From Cytophagales bacterium CG12_big_fil_rev_8_21_14_0_65_40_12 (GTDB taxonomy: Bacteria; Bacteroidota; Bacteroidia; Cytophagales; Cyclobacteriaceae), in the NCBI GenBank assembly GCA_002786855.1, contig PCUU01000012.1, positions 1,821 through 48,088 on the forward strand: a DNA stretch of 46,268 nucleotides, read 5' to 3'. This document shows, piece by piece, positions 1,360 through 42,307 of the stretch (the stretch's first letter is position 1; each line of letters starts with the position of its first letter). The position numbers and the translations under genes were made by a program. Below the pieces are notes generated by a model. The model made no database searches. It had not been told where the DNA came from and saw only the letters and a list, made by a program, of their open reading frames with translations.

Positions 1360-2433
1360 TTAAGCGTGAATCGTGCTGCTTATCTTTGTGTTTATATATT
1401 CATTCAGTTTTTTAAATTCCATCTGCTTCATATAGTTTGCCATATAGTCGTAGTCGGGTTTCTTGTTCTCGTTAACGGGAAGCATTATTTTTTGTCTGTT
1501 CATTCTAGTACCATTAAACTTATATCCATACTGATATTTATTTTTTTGTTTGAGGATTTGGGTTTTCACGAATAAAAATAAATGCCGATTACCTTCAATT
1601 TCCTTAAAACTTAACCGCTTGACATCGTCTGAAAAAATTGCTTTGTATGGGTGATAAAAATTCTCAACTACGCTACCATTATAATTTACTCCCAAGACAT
1701 TTGAGTCTTCAGAACCATTAGAGTTAGAGACAAATTCTGTTATGCCGTTGTTTGAGTCTGTTGCACCCACAAAAGGTTTAGTACCTTTTTTCATTTCTGC
1801 CTTTGTCAAACGCCTTCCTGAGCGAATGTTAAATATAGTTTCGATTTCGAACTCTAACCACTCAACTTCACTTAAGGGGATTACCCCCCCATGATTTAAG
1901 TCATTGATATTCAATGATATATAATTTTTGTACTTTGCTACTAATTTTGATTCCTTGTCACGCATGAACTTTTCCATGAAGTCAAAATCAGGATTGTCGT
2001 CTTTGTTTACTGGAAGAAGTATTTTTTCTTTCTTAATGCGAGTATCATTTATTTCACGATTGAAACTGTACTTTTCTGAAATTCTGCTTACCACGCTTGA
2101 GAGGAATAGGTAAACATATTTATTGAACTTGGGATTTTCTAATTTGGTCACGTGGTCACTTGCAACAAATTTATAAGGTTGATAAAAGCAAGACCCAACA
2201 CTACCACTATTAGCGAGCGAAAGACAATCAGAAAATGTACGAACCCCTTCGCTATTGCCAATAAATCCATCAACTCCGTTATTTGAAGCTGTTGAAGAGA
2301 CATAAGGAACTTTACCTTTTTGGTGGTCTGCTTTTTTAAGCCTTTTCCCACGTTGGATTTTTGGGAAAATCTCTTTTAAGTCAAACTCTTTCCAATCTTT
2401 ACTTTTAAGTTCTAAATCCATTTTATCTAGCAT
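1360..2433 (-). CDS. BcgI-like restriction system specificity (B/S) subunit
   Basis: DNA-recognition subunit of a type IIB/IIG restriction-modification enzyme. The protein is two diverged copies of one module: residues about 15-170 and 195-345 each start with a W-x-EF/LEFEI...IF segment, then GKRL/GRRL, a SNNG motif, a YQPYK/YHPYK motif, and close with ILLPVN/IMLPVN...PD-x-D. This is the layout of two target-recognition domains joined by helices, and the length (about 357) is close to that of BcgI B. The longest frame begins with a TTG at 2439; I chose the ATG at 2433 (11-base overlap with the methylase). The ATG at 2421, just after the methylase stop, is equally possible. It is the last gene of the three-gene operon. 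The base composition is visibly AT-richer than in clpC next door, as expected of transferred restriction genes. Confidence 0.85.
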   Translation of the reverse strand: MLDKMDLELKSKDWKEFDLKEIFPKIQRGKRLKKADHQKGKVPYVSSTASNNGVDGFIGNSEGVRTFSDCLSLANSGSVGSCFYQPYKFVASDHVTKLENPKFNKYVYLFLSSVVSRISEKYSFNREINDTRIKKEKILLPVNKDDNPDFDFMEKFMRDKESKLVAKYKNYISLNINDLNHGGVIPLSEVEWLEFEIETIFNIRSGRRLTKAEMKKGTKPFVGATDSNNGITEFVSNSNGSEDSNVLGVNYNGSVVENFYHPYKAIFSDDVKRLSFKEIEGNRHLFLFVKTQILKQKNKYQYGYKFNGTRMNRQKIMLPVNENKKPDYDYMANYMKQMEFKKLNEYINTKISSTIHA

Positions 2434-4318
2434 TTTCAAATAAAAATTCCTTTCCCTGCATAACCATATTAAACTCGAATGTCAGATAGTCTGATATAGT
2501 TTGCTCAAAATCTTCTGCTTTAGGTATTTCATCATTGAAATAGTAGAATGAGTGTAACCATTCGTCATCGGGTTCTATGGTAGTTTTAACCATAAATTTC
2601 GTTTCTGCTGGTGAATCGTGTAGCCAACAGTTGAGAAGGTGTGCTTTCCTTTCTTTTGCTCTTTCTGTTTCAACTAAACCAACATGTTTACGAACTGCAA
2701 AACCATCATCTTCATAGTTAATAAATTTGCAAAACTTCTTGCCTGAATGCGGTTTATGAGCCGTAAAAATGGCAATACAAGGATTTGTCCCCACACCATA
2801 AAAAGTTTCCTTGTTAAGTGTAATTACACCTTCTAAAGTGTGTTTGGTTAGAATGCGCTTTTTGACTTTCTTATCATCAGACGTTTTTCCAACCATTGTA
2901 GATTGAGGGACTATAACTACACAACGACCATTGTCTGTTAAACCGTCTAATAAATGCTCAATGAAGTGAATTTCTGATAAATGAGCGGTGTCTTTTCCTT
3001 TAGCCTGTGAATACGGTGGATTTATAAAGCCAACAGAGTAATTATTTGCTCGCATTGATTTTACATCCCGCTTTAGGAAGTCGTTTTTTATCAAGTTGCT
3101 TTTTCCATCTCCTCGCAGAATCATATTGGTAGTAGCAATCGAAAACATATCTTCCCGAATTTCTATTCCGTGAATACGTTCCTTTTTAATTATTTCGATT
3201 TCCTCGGGTTTTGCTTGCTCCAACATTTTGTGCATTGCTGAAATTAAAAATCCACCCGTTCCACAACAAGGGTCAAAGACTATGTCTGCTGGTTTTAAGT
3301 CTACTAAGTCACAAAAAATATCCGTAATATGACTTGGAGTAAGTACAACGCCTAAAGTTTGTCCATCTCCACCGCTATAACGTATAAACTCACCATAGAA
3401 ACGACCCAAAACATCTTCTGTTGAATTAGCGACAACGCTTGCATAAACATTCTTTTGCAAGAATTCAGTAAAATACTTCAAAGGTGTTTTCTCTAGACGC
3501 TCATCAATTTGGTTCAGTAAGGTTCTATTTTTTATTATATCGAATTGAGCCAGAACCTGCTCCTTCTTAGTTTCTGGCTTTACTTCTACACGTGTCATAT
3601 GCGTAGAAAGGGCATCATAAATAATCTTCCCATCTGTTTTTAAGTTGTCGCCTTTCAGTTGGTCAGCAATATTGGCATCTTCTCTAAGAGCCAAGAGAAT
3701 AGCCGAAACTACCAGCGGCTTTTCTGAGTCCCCTAATTGCCCATAATTTCGCAACGCTTCGTGAAGTTCAGCCGATTTTTTTAGAACCTCTTCAAGTTCC
3801 AAAGTCTCAACTGGCGTTTCTTCAAGAACTTGTTCTCGATAATATCTTTCGATATTTTCATTAGAGAAATTTTCAAAATTTTCAACTGGTTTTAAAAGCT
3901 TGTAGCCACTTTGGTCGATAAAGATAGGTCGGATTATATGGTGTTTTTCATCACCAGAACAACCGAAGGCAAATACTTTCTTGAAGTTAGTATTTTCAAT
4001 AATATGCTTACCGTAATGTAAAGCACCATTTTCAGCAAAGTCTTTCAGTGATTTAATATCTGTTGACAATTTGGTCTCTGCTTCGTCCGAATAGTTGGCT
4101 TGTTTTTCAAGTTCCGCTTTGTCTTCAACTACAATTATGAAATCTTTTGAAATTCCCACAAATTCAGGAAATCCAACCCTTCCTGTTCCTTTTTTAGAAG
4201 CAGTTTTTAACGCATCGTTAATTTCTTTGATGTTACTTCCATCAGCACTATATCTAATTTTAGCGCTATCTAACAGTTTACTGATAAAAATATCTAGGTT
4301 TTTCTCTTTCTTACTCAC
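2423..4318 (-). CDS. BcgI-like fused nuclease/N6-adenine methyltransferase (A subunit)
   Basis: Bifunctional restriction-modification subunit. Near the N terminus P51-E52, twelve residues, then E65-D66-K67 forms a PE-x12-EDK nuclease motif (PD-(D/E)xK type), in the position known for BcgI. A helical linker follows, then an N6-adenine methylase domain with motif I DPCCGTGGF (349-357) and the catalytic NPPY (433-436). At 631 residues it matches the size of BcgI A (about 640) and is longer than ordinary type I HsdM. The start is GTG at 4316-4318, overlapping the TGA of the upstream HTH gene (GTGA), which implies translational coupling; no nearby ATG exists. Together with the downstream specificity subunit it should methylate a bipartite site and cut on both sides of it. 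A pure type I methylase is less likely because no hsdR is present and the nuclease motif is intact. Confidence 0.88.
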   Translation of the reverse strand: MSKKEKNLDIFISKLLDSAKIRYSADGSNIKEINDALKTASKKGTGRVGFPEFVGISKDFIIVVEDKAELEKQANYSDEAETKLSTDIKSLKDFAENGALHYGKHIIENTNFKKVFAFGCSGDEKHHIIRPIFIDQSGYKLLKPVENFENFSNENIERYYREQVLEETPVETLELEEVLKKSAELHEALRNYGQLGDSEKPLVVSAILLALREDANIADQLKGDNLKTDGKIIYDALSTHMTRVEVKPETKKEQVLAQFDIIKNRTLLNQIDERLEKTPLKYFTEFLQKNVYASVVANSTEDVLGRFYGEFIRYSGGDGQTLGVVLTPSHITDIFCDLVDLKPADIVFDPCCGTGGFLISAMHKMLEQAKPEEIEIIKKERIHGIEIREDMFSIATTNMILRGDGKSNLIKNDFLKRDVKSMRANNYSVGFINPPYSQAKGKDTAHLSEIHFIEHLLDGLTDNGRCVVIVPQSTMVGKTSDDKKVKKRILTKHTLEGVITLNKETFYGVGTNPCIAIFTAHKPHSGKKFCKFINYEDDGFAVRKHVGLVETERAKERKAHLLNCWLHDSPAETKFMVKTTIEPDDEWLHSFYYFNDEIPKAEDFEQTISDYLTFEFNMVMQGKEFLFENAR

Positions 4319-4746: not shown

Positions 4747-7302
4747 CTATTTCGGGTCTTCTTCTTCTTTTTTGCGGCCTCTTTTTTTCTTCACTTTGAG
4801 GGTCAACTGCTCTGCACCTGCCTCATAGTCTGCCAAAAGTGTATCACCTTCATTGATCTCGCCTTTCAAAAGCTCTTCAGCAATTTGGTCTTCCAGGTAC
4901 TTCTGAATCGCCCGGTTGAGCGGACGTGCACCGTACTGCGGATCGAAGCCTTTGTCAGCCAAAAAGTCTTTGGCCGTTTCGGTGAGCTCCACCTTGTATC
5001 CCATTTCATCAATGCGATTCAAGAGCTTTTTAAGCGTGATATCAATGATTTTGTGAATATCCTCTCTTCCTAATGAATTGAAAATGATCACATCATCCAA
5101 ACGGTTTAAAAACTCTGGGCTAAAGGTCTTCTTCAAAGCTCTTTGAATAGTATCTTTAATCACATTGTCTTCATTTTCCTTTCTGGTTTGTGTATTGAAG
5201 CCAATTCCGGCACCAAAATCCTTAAGATCTCTAACACCAATGTTGGAGGTCATAATGATAATTGTATTCCTGAAATCAACTCTTCTACCCAATCCATCGG
5301 TTAAAATACCATCATCCAAAACTTGAAGTAAGATATTGAAAACATCTGGATGTGCTTTTTCAATCTCATCTAGTAAAACCACTGAATAGGGCTTTCTTCT
5401 TACCTTCTCAGTAAGCTGGCCGCCCTCTTCGTAACCTACATAACCAGGAGGCGCTCCCACCAAGCGAGATACCGAGAATTTCTCCATGTACTCACTCATA
5501 TCAATTCGTACTAAAGAATCCTCTTTGTCGAATAAATAGGTAGAAAGCTCTTTGGCCAATTCCGTTTTACCTACCCCTGTCGGGCCTAAGAAAACGAAAG
5601 AGCCGATCGGTTTTGTAGGATCTTTTAGGCCTACTCTAGTCCTTTGAATGGCTTTGGTCAATTTGGCTATGGCCTCATCTTGGCCCACCACTCTCTTTCT
5701 CAGCTCATCGCCCATTCCCACCAATTTCGATTGCTCCTTTTGAGCAATTCGTTTTGTAGGTATACCGGTCATCATGGCAATCACCTCGGCTACATTCTCT
5801 TCGTCCACAGTATAGCGTTTTGCTTTACTATCTTCTTCCCATTTCGCCTTGGCCCTATCTAACTGATCGATAAGCTTCTTTTCCTTATCTCTCAATTGGG
5901 CAGCCTCTTCATATTTTTGGCTTTTCACCACCCTATTTTTTTCCTTTTTGATATCCTCGATGGCTTCTTCAAGCTTTACGATATCCTCAGGAACGTGAAT
6001 ATTATTGATGTGTACTCTAGCGCCAGATTCATCCAAAACATCTATGGCTTTATCCGGTAAAAAGCGGTCAGAAATGTATCGATCTGACAGTTTTACGCAA
6101 GCATTAATCGCTTCAGGAGTGTAATTCACATGATGGTGATCTTCATATTTATCCTTGATATTGGCTAGGATTTGAACGGTTTCCTCCACGGTTGTTGGGT
6201 CTACCATTACTTGCTGAAAACGCCTTGCCAATGCACCATCCTTCTCAATGTATTGTCTGTATTCATCAAGCGTTGTCGCTCCAATGCATTGGATTTCGCC
6301 CCTTGCCAAAGCTGGTTTAAACATGTTGGACGCATCTAAAGAACCTGAAGCTCCACCAGCCCCTACAATGGTATGGAGCTCATCGATGAAGAGTATCACT
6401 TCTGGTGATTTTTCCAGCTCGTTCATCACGGCCTTCATTCTCTCCTCAAACTGACCTCTGTACTTTGTTCCAGCCACAAGCGAGGCCAAATCGAGTGTAA
6501 CTACTCTTTTATTGAAGAGCACCCTTGATACCTTTTTTTGAATAATCCTTAGGGCCAAACCTTCTGCAATGGCAGATTTACCAACACCCGGCTCACCAAT
6601 CAAGATTGGATTGTTCTTCTTTCTTCTGCTCAAGATTTGAGCAACTCTTTCGATTTCCTTCTCCCTGCCGACAATCGGATCTAATTTATCCTCTTCGGCA
6701 TACTTGGTTAGATCTCTTCCAAAGTTGTCTAAAACTGGAGTTCTTGATTTTTCATTGCCTTTGTTTCCTGGCTTATCGCCAGTACTTCCAGAGCCTCCTC
6801 CAAACATTTTTGAAGATTCTTCATCTGAATCGTCAGTGTCCGAAGATGCCATTGGGCCATCGCTGTCAGTTTGATATTCTAGCATTTCTTTTACCACTTC
6901 GTAGTTAACATCGAATTTTTCTAATATTTGAGTTGCGATATTGTCCTCATCCCTTAATATGGAAAGGAGTAAATGCTCCGTTCCAATCAATTGACTCTTG
7001 AATATCTTGGCTTCTAAATAGGTGATTTTCAACACTTTTTCTGACTGCCTAGTTAAAGGAATATTCGCCAGATTTTTGACATTGTGATTGGCGGTGCCTT
7101 TCGTGGCACGTTCAACTGATTCACGCAACTCTTCTAATGAGGTTCCCAATTTTTTTAGGATACTCACGGCTACGCCTTCTCCTTCTCTGATCATTCCGAG
7201 CAAGAGGTGCTCTGTACCGATGTAGTCATGCCCCAATCTTAAGGCCTCTTCACGGCTTAGAGAAATTACCTCTTTGACTCTATTCGAAAATTTAGCTTCC
7301 AT
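4747..7302 (-). CDS. clpC: ATP-dependent Clp protease ATP-binding subunit ClpC
   Basis: Hexameric AAA+ unfoldase that feeds substrates to the ClpP peptidase in the cytoplasm. Domain order is complete: two Clp N-terminal repeats (about residues 5-60 and 80-140), an acidic/Gly-rich linker (145-185), the first AAA+ module with Walker A GEPGVGKS (236-243) and Walker B-type LFIDELH (304-310), the UVR-containing middle domain (KYEEAAQLRD region, about 463-472) that marks ClpC rather than ClpA or ClpB, and the second AAA+ module with GPTGVGKT (573-580). An IGF tripeptide in GAGIGFNTQ fits the ClpP-docking loop. The 851-residue length is normal for Bacteroidota. The C terminus is a basic KKKRGRKKEEE tail. 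It is a single gene with its own terminator; no McsAB or CtsR partner is adjacent. Confidence 0.96.
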   Translation of the reverse strand: MEAKFSNRVKEVISLSREEALRLGHDYIGTEHLLLGMIREGEGVAVSILKKLGTSLEELRESVERATKGTANHNVKNLANIPLTRQSEKVLKITYLEAKIFKSQLIGTEHLLLSILRDEDNIATQILEKFDVNYEVVKEMLEYQTDSDGPMASSDTDDSDEESSKMFGGGSGSTGDKPGNKGNEKSRTPVLDNFGRDLTKYAEEDKLDPIVGREKEIERVAQILSRRKKNNPILIGEPGVGKSAIAEGLALRIIQKKVSRVLFNKRVVTLDLASLVAGTKYRGQFEERMKAVMNELEKSPEVILFIDELHTIVGAGGASGSLDASNMFKPALARGEIQCIGATTLDEYRQYIEKDGALARRFQQVMVDPTTVEETVQILANIKDKYEDHHHVNYTPEAINACVKLSDRYISDRFLPDKAIDVLDESGARVHINNIHVPEDIVKLEEAIEDIKKEKNRVVKSQKYEEAAQLRDKEKKLIDQLDRAKAKWEEDSKAKRYTVDEENVAEVIAMMTGIPTKRIAQKEQSKLVGMGDELRKRVVGQDEAIAKLTKAIQRTRVGLKDPTKPIGSFVFLGPTGVGKTELAKELSTYLFDKEDSLVRIDMSEYMEKFSVSRLVGAPPGYVGYEEGGQLTEKVRRKPYSVVLLDEIEKAHPDVFNILLQVLDDGILTDGLGRRVDFRNTIIIMTSNIGVRDLKDFGAGIGFNTQTRKENEDNVIKDTIQRALKKTFSPEFLNRLDDVIIFNSLGREDIHKIIDITLKKLLNRIDEMGYKVELTETAKDFLADKGFDPQYGARPLNRAIQKYLEDQIAEELLKGEINEGDTLLADYEAGAEQLTLKVKKKRGRKKEEEDPK

Positions 7303-38522: not shown

Positions 38523-38993
38523 ATGGAAATAAGAAAAGGAACTAAGGACGATTTAGCGCAAGTTTTCGAGCTTATAAAAGAATTGGCTGAATACGAAAAA
38601 GCCCCAGAACAAGTCAATAATTCTGTGGCCAGAATGGAAGAAGATGGCTTTGGCGAGAAACCGATTTTCGAATTCTTTGTTGCAGAAGAAGGCCATGATA
38701 TTATTGGAACAGCCATTTTTTATTATCGCTATTCTACTTGGAAAGGAAAGGCCATTTATCTTGAAGATTTAATTGTTCGTGAAGCGAAAAGAGGAAGTGG
38801 AACTGGAAAAAAATTGCTAGACGCCATCGTGAACGAAGCAAAAAGAGTTGACGCCCGTCAGGTGATGTGGCAAGTGCTCGATTGGAACGAACCCGCCATT
38901 AACTTCTATAAAAAGCTCGGTACTGATTTAGATACAGGATGGATCAACTGCAAATTAGAATATGATCAAATCCAAAATTACTCTACAGACTGA
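38523..38993 (+). CDS. GNAT family N-acetyltransferase, diamine acetyltransferase-like
   Basis: Acetyl-CoA-dependent acetyltransferase of 156 residues. It begins EIRKGTKDDLAQVFELIKELAEYEKAPEQV, close to the SSAT-like (spermidine/diamine) branch, and has the acetyl-CoA pyrophosphate loop as REAKRGSGTGKKLLDAI (R/Q-x2-G-x-G/A type) after EDLIV. The C-terminal block WNEPAINFYKKLGT is typical. The substrate is not certain. The last four codons and the TGA (38991-38993) fall within the left copy of the 32-bp repeat that brackets the McrBC cassette, so the gene's end is shared with the repeat but its frame is intact. It starts two bases after the adhesin stop codon. Confidence 0.88.
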   Translation: MEIRKGTKDDLAQVFELIKELAEYEKAPEQVNNSVARMEEDGFGEKPIFEFFVAEEGHDIIGTAIFYYRYSTWKGKAIYLEDLIVREAKRGSGTGKKLLDAIVNEAKRVDARQVMWQVLDWNEPAINFYKKLGTDLDTGWINCKLEYDQIQNYSTD

Positions 38994-39007
38994 AGTAAAG
39001 TTCGGAA
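38976..39007. repeat. Left copy of a perfect 32-bp direct repeat flanking the McrBC cassette
   Basis: The 32 bases from AATTACTC to GTTCGGAA are identical to 42276-42307, an offset of exactly 3300. This copy contains the last codons and stop of the GNAT gene and, on the other strand, a stranded 3' tail (RTLLQSVE and stop) of the DUF4286 gene. That indicates both genes once converged here with a 16-base overlap and that the cassette inserted with duplication of this segment. Confidence 0.95.
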
Positions 39008-39053
39008 ATCACACTTAGCCATCAATTCATTAATATTAGTAGTTGTGCATATT

Positions 39054-40328
39054 TCAATTGATTGTAGGAAGCTTTAACCCAAGCTTAAAAATATCATAAT
39101 ATTTAGGTATAACTGTATCTCTTAAGTTAATTTCTTCTAGGTTATCAAATCCGTTTTCCTGATCAGGATAAATAATTAGGCAATCGATCGTTTTTCCTTT
39201 CTCAATACCTAGAGTTTCATACACCTTTTCGAGTCTTGCATATCCGCTTACTTGGCGGATATCTTCATGGTTTACCCCATTCAAATACTTTAGTTTGTAC
39301 TTGGTGTCAATCACCATTTTAAATTCAGGATGGTTCAGTAAGAAGTCTAATTCACTTCCCGAACCTTTGAATTGAAACTGGACTTGTTTCTGAAATCTAT
39401 CCTTTAACAAGCCAAGGGCATAGAGTTCAAACAGCTTACTCATGTCTATCCAGAATGGAGGTGTTTTTATTATCTGCTTTTTGGTGTTCGAAATGTTATA
39501 GCCAAACCGCTTTAGAATGAGCTTGGCCAGGTCCATAGCGGGTTTATATTCTTTATAGAAGGCGTTGACCTTAGTGCTCTTTATTTCAGAAAGTTCTATT
39601 TCGTCCGAAACAGTATGAAATGCAGGATTGATGAAGTTAAAAGTATCTGTTAGTTCTCGATGACTAGCCAATTGTGTGTAATTGGGCAGATATCTTTTAA
39701 CGAACGTTAGAGCCTTTTTTAGTAATCGGTTTTCGAGATTGTTTAATCCGTATTCCTCAAAAGTACAGACAGTGTAGAGGTTTTTATTTTGAAGTAAATT
39801 CTGCTTGATCGTTTTGCCAACCGATATTTTACCCTTAACCCTGCTATTTAGGTTTTGCTCAACTCTGTAATAAGATTTCTTTAATCCTTTTCTGACAATT
39901 GTTTTAATAAGGCTCAAAAACTCTACAACCAAGAAGGGGGTTAGCAGATCTCGTTTTTGCTCGATTTCGATAGGTGGTTCATTCCATTTTACCTCAAAAA
40001 GCTCATTGATTTCGGTAGCTAGATCTGAATGCCTTAGACAAGAGAAGAGCATTTTTATAAAATCAACCTCGCTGTTCTGCTTATTCAGTTTTGGGCTTAT
40101 GCAAATTGCGGCTCTCTCAGGCACTATCCAGTCAACCCCGATAAAGTAGCTGGTCTCTATTTTATAATTGGTTTCAGTGCGCTTAATGATGTAGCAGGGT
40201 AAGCTTACATCTTGGCTATTGCGTATTTTATTGAAAAGCGTTTCATAACGCTGCTCAACAAGCAGTGATGAATCATTTGGGAATGTTTCATTCTGATGTT
40301 CTCGATATGCAAGTAGCTTAAAATCCAA
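39054..40328 (-). CDS. mcrC: McrC-like 5-methylcytosine restriction nuclease subunit
   Basis: Nuclease partner of the McrB GTPase in a type IV restriction system that cleaves modified DNA. The N-terminal region (1-130) is a beta-rich McrB-interaction domain with WIVPERAAICISPKLN. The C-terminal PD-(D/E)xK nuclease has SELDFLL (D328) and VIDTKYK (D341, K343), preceded by WIDMSKLFELYALGLL, the family's helical element. The length (424) is in the normal range for McrC. The only available start is TTG at 40326-40328: an in-frame stop lies just upstream and the next Met is at residue 93. It overlaps the end of mcrB by 11 bases, so expression is probably coupled. It lies inside the segment bracketed by the 32-bp repeats. 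Confidence 0.9.
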   Translation of the reverse strand: MDFKLLAYREHQNETFPNDSSLLVEQRYETLFNKIRNSQDVSLPCYIIKRTETNYKIETSYFIGVDWIVPERAAICISPKLNKQNSEVDFIKMLFSCLRHSDLATEINELFEVKWNEPPIEIEQKRDLLTPFLVVEFLSLIKTIVRKGLKKSYYRVEQNLNSRVKGKISVGKTIKQNLLQNKNLYTVCTFEEYGLNNLENRLLKKALTFVKRYLPNYTQLASHRELTDTFNFINPAFHTVSDEIELSEIKSTKVNAFYKEYKPAMDLAKLILKRFGYNISNTKKQIIKTPPFWIDMSKLFELYALGLLKDRFQKQVQFQFKGSGSELDFLLNHPEFKMVIDTKYKLKYLNGVNHEDIRQVSGYARLEKVYETLGIEKGKTIDCLIIYPDQENGFDNLEEINLRDTVIPKYYDIFKLGLKLPTIN

Positions 40329-42207
40329 AACCTGAAATTTCTTTTAACTTGTCTTTAGCCGATTCTAACAGGATGCCATCTTTGATGTACTCGTTAAGTA
40401 TTGGCAAAATTTCATATTGTAGTCTCATCTTAAGTTCTTCTGTTTGATCTTCTACTGAGCCCTCTTTTATCATGAAATAGCTATGGCCTAGTTGTACATC
40501 TTTATAGTCAAAATCAGAAGCCAAGTGCTCTGAATTGGTATTGTCTTCTTTAACAAAAAGCGCTGATACTAACCTGAAGAGTTCTTTGGCTTTTTCATTA
40601 TTGATTATCTCGATATTGGGCAATACATCTACAAAAGCGAATCGTCTTTTAATCGCATAGTCAATATGGCCAACGCTTCGGTCCGCTGTGTTCATAGTAC
40701 CTATGATGTAAAGGTTATCTGGCAATACAAGAGAATTATCTCCATCAATACCATAAATGCTTTGTACGGATTCATTTCTGTATTCCAATGCATAGATCAA
40801 TTCACCAAGTACTGAAGGCAGGTTCGCTCGGTTAATTTCATCAATAATAAGCACATGATTTATTGAAGCTTGCTTTAGCCTATCAACAAAAGCGATAAAA
40901 TCACTTTGTATGGCTAGTAAGCTTGACTGAATGAAATCGTCATCGAAAGTGCTAGGGTTATTATAATTTTCCCAAGTAAATGACTCTTCAATATCGATCC
41001 AGGTAGGCATAACCCAACTACCGTCTCGAAAAATTTCATACCTCAATTTTCCAATTCCGCTGTAATTATTTTTATACCAAACATCCAGAAGTCTTACTTC
41101 GTGATTATTATTAAAGTAATAAGGAACATGAGTAGATTCCTTTAAGCTTTGCTTCATTAAGAGATAATCAAGATACTTAGCTGCTATAAAGTCTTCTTCA
41201 GATAGCGAGGTTGCAAATTTTGCAGACATGGCACTTCGCGCAAACTTTGCAAGCGTCTTGTTTTCTACTTCGTATTTAACATTGCCATTTTCATTTGTTT
41301 TGGATATTATGCCTCGAACAAAATCTTCATAAGAATAGGAGGGGTGAAACTGCACCAAAACAAACTGATCCGAAGACTCAAGCTTCTCTTTTTGTTGTTT
41401 CTTATTAGAAGAAACCGAACCAAAAATCATCTCCTCAGCAATGTCTTTAGCTGTATAGGTTTTGCCTGTTCCAGGAGGACCTTGGAGAATAATTTGCTTC
41501 TTCGCTTTTAAAACATCAGTATTTTTTGTCATGTTTTTACGTACTAAAAGTTGTGTATACCAATTATTGATAAAATTCCATGTCAAAGTGCTTGGATCAG
41601 TTGCTTTTTGTAAAGTTCCTTGCGGTTGCGGAAAATCTGTTGTGCCACTATAAAATTCTAATACTTCTACCTCTCTGAAGTTTTCATTGAAGTATTTTTC
41701 CGTTAGTTCTTTATCCTTGAAGTTCTCACTAGTCACTTTACAAAGTGCCAATATCCTTTTCCCTTCTTTGACACAAACAATATCACCAATGGTCATTATT
41801 GTTTTAAAATCTATGCATTGTCGGTTATCCCACTCCCCAGTAGCAATTAATGGAGGCTCTTCGTATAGCAGCTTGATTGAATCTATCTCCATACCACCTC
41901 TTCCTTGGGGAAGAAACATCTGCAAATGCCAATAAGTAATTGGATAGTTCTTGTTAACTACTCTAAACCCAAACTCCTCTTCAAATTTAAAACGATTTGC
42001 TCTGCTACTGTTGAAGAAGCTCGGCTCAAGATTGACCCCAGCAAGTTTAGCAGCTTCTGAAACTATTAATTTATACGGATACTCTTTATTATTTATTTCT
42101 ACAGCGTAAGTTGTTCCAACTCGTTTTGCGGGAATGCCTTTCTCATTAATCTTAGCCGCGGCTTCATTAATCAAATCTTTGGTTAGAAAATTGAGCTTAC
42201 CATCCAT
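40318..42207 (-). CDS. mcrB: McrB-like AAA+ GTPase with EVE-like modified-base-binding N terminus
   Basis: Motor subunit of a type IV restriction system. Residue numbers count from the ATG at 42207 (the frame extends three codons to a TTG). Residues about 1-90 include NKEYPYKLIVSEAAKLAG...FFNSSRANRFKFEEEFGF, resembling the N-terminal module of ScoMcrA-type enzymes. Residues about 92-195 (YWHLQM...GDIVCVKEGKRILALCKVTSE...VEVLEFY) look like an EVE/PUA-type domain, known to bind modified bases. The AAA+ GTPase follows with Walker A GPPGTGKT (243-250), Walker B VLIIDE (452-457) and the McrB signature MNTADRS (505-511), then RRFAF. Domain calls for the N terminus are by eye. It is the first gene of the cassette; the 60 bases between its start and the right repeat should hold the promoter, but none is clear. 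Confidence 0.9.
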   Translation of the reverse strand: MDGKLNFLTKDLINEAAAKINEKGIPAKRVGTTYAVEINNKEYPYKLIVSEAAKLAGVNLEPSFFNSSRANRFKFEEEFGFRVVNKNYPITYWHLQMFLPQGRGGMEIDSIKLLYEEPPLIATGEWDNRQCIDFKTIMTIGDIVCVKEGKRILALCKVTSENFKDKELTEKYFNENFREVEVLEFYSGTTDFPQPQGTLQKATDPSTLTWNFINNWYTQLLVRKNMTKNTDVLKAKKQIILQGPPGTGKTYTAKDIAEEMIFGSVSSNKKQQKEKLESSDQFVLVQFHPSYSYEDFVRGIISKTNENGNVKYEVENKTLAKFARSAMSAKFATSLSEEDFIAAKYLDYLLMKQSLKESTHVPYYFNNNHEVRLLDVWYKNNYSGIGKLRYEIFRDGSWVMPTWIDIEESFTWENYNNPSTFDDDFIQSSLLAIQSDFIAFVDRLKQASINHVLIIDEINRANLPSVLGELIYALEYRNESVQSIYGIDGDNSLVLPDNLYIIGTMNTADRSVGHIDYAIKRRFAFVDVLPNIEIINNEKAKELFRLVSALFVKEDNTNSEHLASDFDYKDVQLGHSYFMIKEGSVEDQTEELKMRLQYEILPILNEYIKDGILLESAKDKLKEISGFGF

Positions 42208-42275
42208 TATTCCCAACTAAATTTAATTTTTTACTCTGCCATTAAGGTAAACTTTTTATTTGTTCTAGACCTGAT

Positions 42276-42307
42276 AATTACTCTACAGACTGAAGTAAAG
42301 TTCGGAA
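42276..42307. repeat. Right copy of the 32-bp direct repeat flanking the McrBC cassette
   Basis: Identical to 38976-39007. On the minus strand it encodes the last nine residues (FRTLLQSVE) and the stop codon of the intact DUF4286 gene, so this copy belongs to the functional 3' end of that gene. No inverted repeats were seen just inside either copy and no recombinase is encoded between them. Confidence 0.95.

Follow-up and report, generated by a model that had tools for sequence, protein, structure and literature searches.

A McrBC operon framed by a 32-bp direct repeat at the joint 3′ end of two convergent genes in a Roseivirga-type bacterium

The window analysed here, a stretch of 46,268 nucleotides from a marine Roseivirga-type bacterium, contains a GNAT acetyltransferase gene and a DUF4286 gene in convergent orientation, with a block carrying mcrB and mcrC placed between their 3′ ends and framed by a direct repeat (Table 1). 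The two copies of this repeat are identical in 32 of 32 bases, are spaced by 3300 bp, and differ at the very next base on both sides, as was stated in the original prediction and reconfirmed on the window. The left copy provides the last five codons and the TGA of the GNAT gene, and the right copy provides the last nine codons and the TAA of DUF4286, while the antisense tail of DUF4286 (FRTLLQSVE followed by the stop) persists in the left copy, where it is useless. This arrangement of the gene ends had been proposed earlier and agrees with the open reading frames. Scripted removal of one repeat copy together with the cassette reproduced the restoration that had been claimed, yielding a GNAT protein of 156 aa and a DUF4286 protein of 102 aa encoded by genes that overlap by 16 bases.

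Table 1. Features of the GNAT–DUF4286 junction in the window.
Feature	Position	Strand	Evidence or content
GNAT acetyltransferase, 156 aa	38523..38993	+	ORF; Pfam Acetyltransf_1 8.1e-18; convergent neighbour of DUF4286 in relatives
Left repeat copy	38976..39007		GNAT last codons and TGA, 14-base tail, antisense DUF4286 remnant
Inserted block, 3268 bp, G+C 35.9%	39008..42275		Between the repeat copies
mcrC, 424 aa, nuclease subunit	39054..40328	-	ORF; Pfam McrBC 3.8e-32; alignment
mcrB, 629 aa, AAA+ subunit, GPPGTGKT and MNTADRS	40318..42207	-	ORF; phmmer to McrB structures 2.2e-33; alignment
Right repeat copy	42276..42307		DUF4286 last codons and stop
DUF4286 gene, 102 aa	42278..42586	-	ORF; Pfam DUF4286 7.2e-33

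The mcrB and mcrC genes overlap, are both located on the minus strand, and are the sole genes between the repeats; the claim that the cargo consists of these two alone is borne out by the ORFs as well as by Pfam and phmmer. The start of mcrB is the ATG at 42207, with a TTG at 42216 also possible, and the non-coding bases at the ends of the insert number 46 and 59 (~105), or 46 and 68 if the ATG is used. The G+C content of the block compares with 40.4 ± 1.9% for 3268-bp windows taken over the whole window, block included. In addition to the matches given in Table 1, McrB matches Pfam AAA_5 (1.5e-15), and its sequences GPPGTGKT and MNTADRS, which we take to be the Walker A and McrB AAA+ motifs, are invariant in an alignment with eight relatives. 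In McrC, residues D328, D341, and K343, presumably those of the PD-(D/E)xK site, are likewise invariant in eight aligned McrCs. The block is an McrBC operon of foreign origin (type IV restriction, directed against phages), and it shares with the McrBC systems of E. coli and Thermococcus gammatolerans an AAA+ McrB with the Walker A and MNTADRS motifs and a McrC partner. It differs from them in an extra N-terminal part of McrB comprising ~88 residues, which is also absent in the eight family relatives and for which no Pfam match appears among the 25 best matches listed. The model of McrB is of low confidence (mean pLDDT 56.5); with it, Foldseek finds 6ut4 (1.0e-15), as well as weak matches to THYN1 (with 5-methylcytosine DNA) and VcaM4I (E 2e-3 to 4e-3), which may be taken only as a hint at a modified-base reader at the N terminus.

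McrB is found (E <= 1e-20) in none of the other 18 genomes of the genus and in 34 of 389 other genomes of the family, and one congener carries a different McrC elsewhere in its genome. A sample of the phylum (394 other genomes) contains a single, partial McrC match (E <= 1e-30). The nearest relatives in the family are 37–45% identical in McrB and 43–48% in McrC, and their operons, set between other genes, lack exact repeats of 16 bp or more at their flanks. The possibility of a travelling McrBC cassette was also considered and rejected on the basis of searches of viral contigs, plasmids, and phage records, none of which holds a close copy: no McrC relative was found in the viral contigs with a query able to detect only close relatives, the plasmid search returned ten records with 24–29% identity, and no similar DNA was found in the phage records.

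A chance origin of the 32-bp repeat is negligible. In 20 simulated windows (first-order, with the same dinucleotide make-up), the longest direct repeats with a spacing of 300–15000 bp measure 14–17 bp, and a simple estimate from base composition puts the expected number of pairs of 32 bp or longer at ~2e-10 for the window. There is no third copy in the 4.06-Mb assembly with up to three mismatches allowed, and a search with a 21-bp core leads to the same two places only. We find it scarcely credible that the structure is an artefact of assembly, even with the genome being a draft of 99 contigs, since the contig, within the window, extends 39 kb to one side of the cassette and no less than 4.0 kb to the opposite side, the neighbouring genes are by eye the same as in a congener, and a repeat of 32 bp should be far below the usual read lengths.

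Comparison with relatives of the organism, of which the nearest named ones are Roseivirga species, shows that the event took place, in which direction it went, and that it duplicated the target. The nearest relatives are 79–81% identical in the GNAT and DUF4286 proteins, and 14 of the 18 congeners have the aligned ends of the two genes at -10 to +8 bases from each other, which means that they overlap or abut; their junctions, as judged by eye, align with the 32 bp. The empty arrangement is known from the comparison between species, and the empty target of the window's own species would be the one seen in these congeners. Since the relatives mostly have overlapping or abutting gene ends and no McrB, the insertion is the derived state. 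The original prediction of a cassette inserted into convergent overlapping genes with a duplication of 32 bp therefore agrees with the empty arrangement in these 14 congeners and is, on such comparative grounds, very probably correct. Among the genomes examined, there is no relative that lacks McrBC and yet has two copies of the repeat, nor do the flanking genes prove never to have been adjacent, the two observations that had been named as contradicting the prediction. The insertion is probably recent, since the two copies still agree throughout the 14 non-coding bases that form the tail of the left one.

In the remaining four congeners, the junction is occupied by a spacer or by other genes. 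The two stop codons are 35 bases apart in the one matched to R. echinicomitans. The one matched to R. seohaensis has a PIN-domain toxin with a probable antitoxin, the latter without a Pfam match (L073 1433-2042), the one matched to R. ehrenbergii has a small ORF that resembles a lipoprotein and likewise lacks a Pfam match, and the fourth has a prolyl oligopeptidase. The GNAT tail is altered in these four, reading, for example, QIQEYKxG or NYKA versus QIQNYSTD. It had been suggested to look for the same 32 bp around other cargo at this site, but the repeat is absent in all four. The idea of the same kind of repeat around other cargo was likewise abandoned: in three of them, the flanks share no string beyond what shuffles give (a string as long arises in 64, 70, and 162 of 200 shuffles), and in the congener with the spacer of 35 bp the flanks taken for comparison overlap each other, which makes a long self-match meaningless, and the next best match has 7 bases. 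As four congeners hold a spacer or other genes there, DNA has entered this junction repeatedly within the genus, but intact ends together with a repeat are seen in the window only. In the family, 132 genomes besides the window's own have both genes (148 searched, own included), and in 74 of them the genes are convergent within 20 kb, with at most 60 bases between them in 47, 61–400 bases in 11, and more than 400 bases in 16; genes located on different contigs cannot be judged in these counts. By eye, the 16 longer cargos look like ordinary genes, with one toxin-antitoxin-like pair, and a comparison of the flanks that covered these 16 genomes gives 5–10 bases as the longest common string.

The search for a mobilising enzyme utilised a profile built from six tyrosine recombinases of this genome, which recovered, as controls, these six and a seventh fragment, seven matches in total. 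No tyrosine recombinase is found with this profile in the insert or in the 20 other cargos at the junction, and no transposase gene is found among the ORFs of the insert. Neither an integrase nor a transposase is favoured by these findings, although one might have acted in trans and then been lost. Five stretches surrounding the tyrosine recombinases were viewed and revealed no link to the 32-bp site. Elsewhere in the same genome (L162 7161-9590, contig C54), an integrase gene is found by eye beside the 3′ end of a hemC-like gene, near defence-island-like genes, and is likely to belong to an integrated island unrelated to the 32-bp repeat. The earlier suggestion of a site-specific enzyme acting in trans may still apply, given the seven matches in the genome, but nothing found backs it and a third copy of the repeat is lacking.

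The repeats might, nevertheless, represent attL and attR of an element of the tyrosine-recombinase type, the integrase of which was lost or acts in trans (CIME), a reading that we consider possible but rather unlikely. In the passages available from a review of such elements, their att sites are described as direct repeats of 8–60 bp at the 3′ ends of protein genes, with one repeat restoring the gene end, and decayed CIMEs are described as well (PMC5704250). The junction analysed here resembles them in each of these respects, with a repeat of this length class at the 3′ end of a gene that is restored by one copy, and the seven recombinase matches of the genome add to the case. However, the insert is operon-sized and filled by mcrBC, with little non-coding space and no integrase or remnant of one, and neither the 20 other cargos at the junction nor any relative at this site in the genomes examined carries such an enzyme; this test of absence covers only relatives and remnants, since a CIME has by definition lost these genes. 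Besides the lack of a third core copy in the genome, the exact 23-bp core of the repeat is present in no viral contig, and three viral contigs that fit a loose pattern of the core are devoid of such a recombinase and look like chance matches. The dyad in the repeat is no better than in shuffled sequences (132 of 1000 shuffles reach it).

A transposon-like element that makes a very long staggered cut is very unlikely. The ends of the insert have in common four inverted bases, ATCA, which could hint at an enzyme but are near chance (~1/256). The terminal inverted repeats and short duplication of a DDE-type transposon are not seen here, with four inverted bases and a 32-bp duplication, the insert has no transposase gene, and we know of no transposase that makes a duplication of 32 bp. 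In turn, a circle that already held the 32-bp gene end beside mcrBC could have been integrated by a single homologous crossover. Integration of the Campbell type yields exactly such a structure. Against it stand the lack of a third copy or a donor in the assembly, the phylum sample, and the plasmid and phage records, as well as the length of the repeat, 32 bp being close to the shortest that RecA can use; moreover, the explanation only shifts the question to how the circle gained the 32 bp. We therefore regard integration of such a circle as improbable.

The process that we favour, while giving it no better than an even chance, is a one-off illegitimate insertion with a long target duplication, followed by retention, and it is inferred from the structure that the event left. 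A foreign McrBC operon entered as an operon-sized block at the 16-base overlap of the GNAT and DUF4286 3′ ends, and 32 bp of the target were duplicated, by which each gene kept a complete end. The incoming DNA might have been joined at a break with long staggered ends that were then filled in or, alternatively, a template switch might have returned 32 bases upstream. Retention would follow from both neighbours still working and from the operon being useful or self-maintaining. The length of the duplication may in part reflect the events that survived, because fewer than 16 duplicated bases would spoil one of the gene ends. What speaks against illegitimate insertion is that such a mechanism leaves no direct trace, and that an att-flanked element fits the ends equally well. 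The comparison of the empty site between species only, the lack of a second such case among 48 other McrBC loci and in the scanned fifth of the genome, and the four inverted bases at the ends of the insert also count against it. We can also speculate that operon-sized defence blocks of these bacteria are moved by a dedicated machinery that works in trans where convergent genes overlap at their ends, duplicating ~30 bp and leaving the genes intact; this is a doubtful proposition which, if true, would mean mobility of defence genes without a mobility gene of their own.

Other McrBC loci were compared in the same manner at 48 of the 69 other places in the family, taking ~8 kb to either side, or a shorter stretch where the contig ended. 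In five of the 48 (L205, L216, L219, L224, and L227), the operon is flanked by exact repeats of 16 bp or more, and none of the 48 has one longer than 24 bp. In L219, a palindromic 24-bp direct repeat, TTCGAAATTGCAAATTTCGAAGAG, is found at positions 6143 and 14344, 8.2 kb apart, enclosing a block of mcrBC and three other genes, with its second copy located in a short ORF. The next longest repeat, in L224, measures 21 bp, with the copies 10.4 kb apart and one of them in a coding frame. These five cases were not accepted as the same phenomenon. Because the 48 loci show no comparable repeat, the 32-bp duplication is not a habit of McrBC operons, or else the other cases are too old.

Within the same genome, 46 stretches totalling 776,545 bases of the 4.06 Mb (a fifth) were scanned, and exact direct repeats of at least 20 bp with a spacing of 300–15000 bp are present in 15 of the 45 stretches besides the window. 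By eye, these resemble either modules that recur in proteins or non-coding repeats of the dispersed kind, and no second comparable insertion was recognised in this fifth of the genome, where two of the repeats (L165 and L172) were examined closely. The first of them (L165 13738-15500, contig C3) includes a gene for 227 aa between long, similar non-coding copies 1.3 kb apart, with runs of 94, 37, and 35 identical bases and more, and could be either another long-duplication insertion or a tandem duplication. The second (L172 3855-3960 and 15045-15150, contig C11) is a dispersed non-coding element of ~75 bases, with further copies in L245-L250 and eight places in the genome within three mismatches of a 23-base motif. 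The ends of this element are complementary over 12 bp (CTCCAAAAGT...ACTTTTGGAG), and a stretch resembling GCTCATTCATAG is conserved in it; Rfam gave no convincing match, and the element may represent either a structured RNA or a transposable element of the miniature type. The window itself contains, at 1360-4318 on the minus strand, a restriction-modification pair with a G+C content of 35.5%, consisting of a methyltransferase that matches PADLOC type IIG models and a specificity subunit, and there is no flanking direct repeat of at least 17 bp around it.

Passages from papers by the Kobayashi group, and from others citing it, describe restriction-modification genes that insert with long and variable target duplications (PMC1643837, PMC3031569), a pattern which, according to these and other excerpts, came from the comparison of two Helicobacter pylori strains (PMC1643837, PMC3031569, PMC4978471, PMC2749054, PMC3154945) and which the citing papers credit to Nobusato et al. 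2000 and Furuta et al. 2010 (PMC1643837, PMC3031569, PMC3154945, PMC4978471). McrBC has been argued, in another paper of that group, to be mobile itself, with horizontal transfer, linkage to integrases or transposases, presence on plasmids, and insertion into restriction gene complexes (PMC2614495). With an empty allele in congeners, a 32-bp repeat made from the target, and a restriction cargo without a mobility gene, the case described here is a fresh instance of the known pattern of restriction-gene movement. It differs from the published ones in the type IV (McrBC) cargo and the Roseivirga-type host, in a target that is an overlap of convergent gene ends with both genes left whole, and in an empty allele known from other species only. 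The original view that the duplication is far longer than usual, and the mechanism consequently unusual, was too strong, as a long duplication has been published for restriction genes and repeats of 8–60 bp are normal for integrative elements. No paper on Roseivirga and McrBC together was found within the literature collection searched, and among the matches listed for defence insertions with direct repeats (titles and abstract starts, one literature collection) none is alike.

Restriction genes that lie between long target duplications and lack a mobility gene are, according to the passages cited above, still unexplained since their description in Helicobacter. The sharp ends of the block, the empty arrangement in relatives, and a duplication that saved two genes make precise excision or a circular form directly testable at this locus. 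The locus shows, moreover, that McrBC can be acquired as an operon on its own, away from any defence island.
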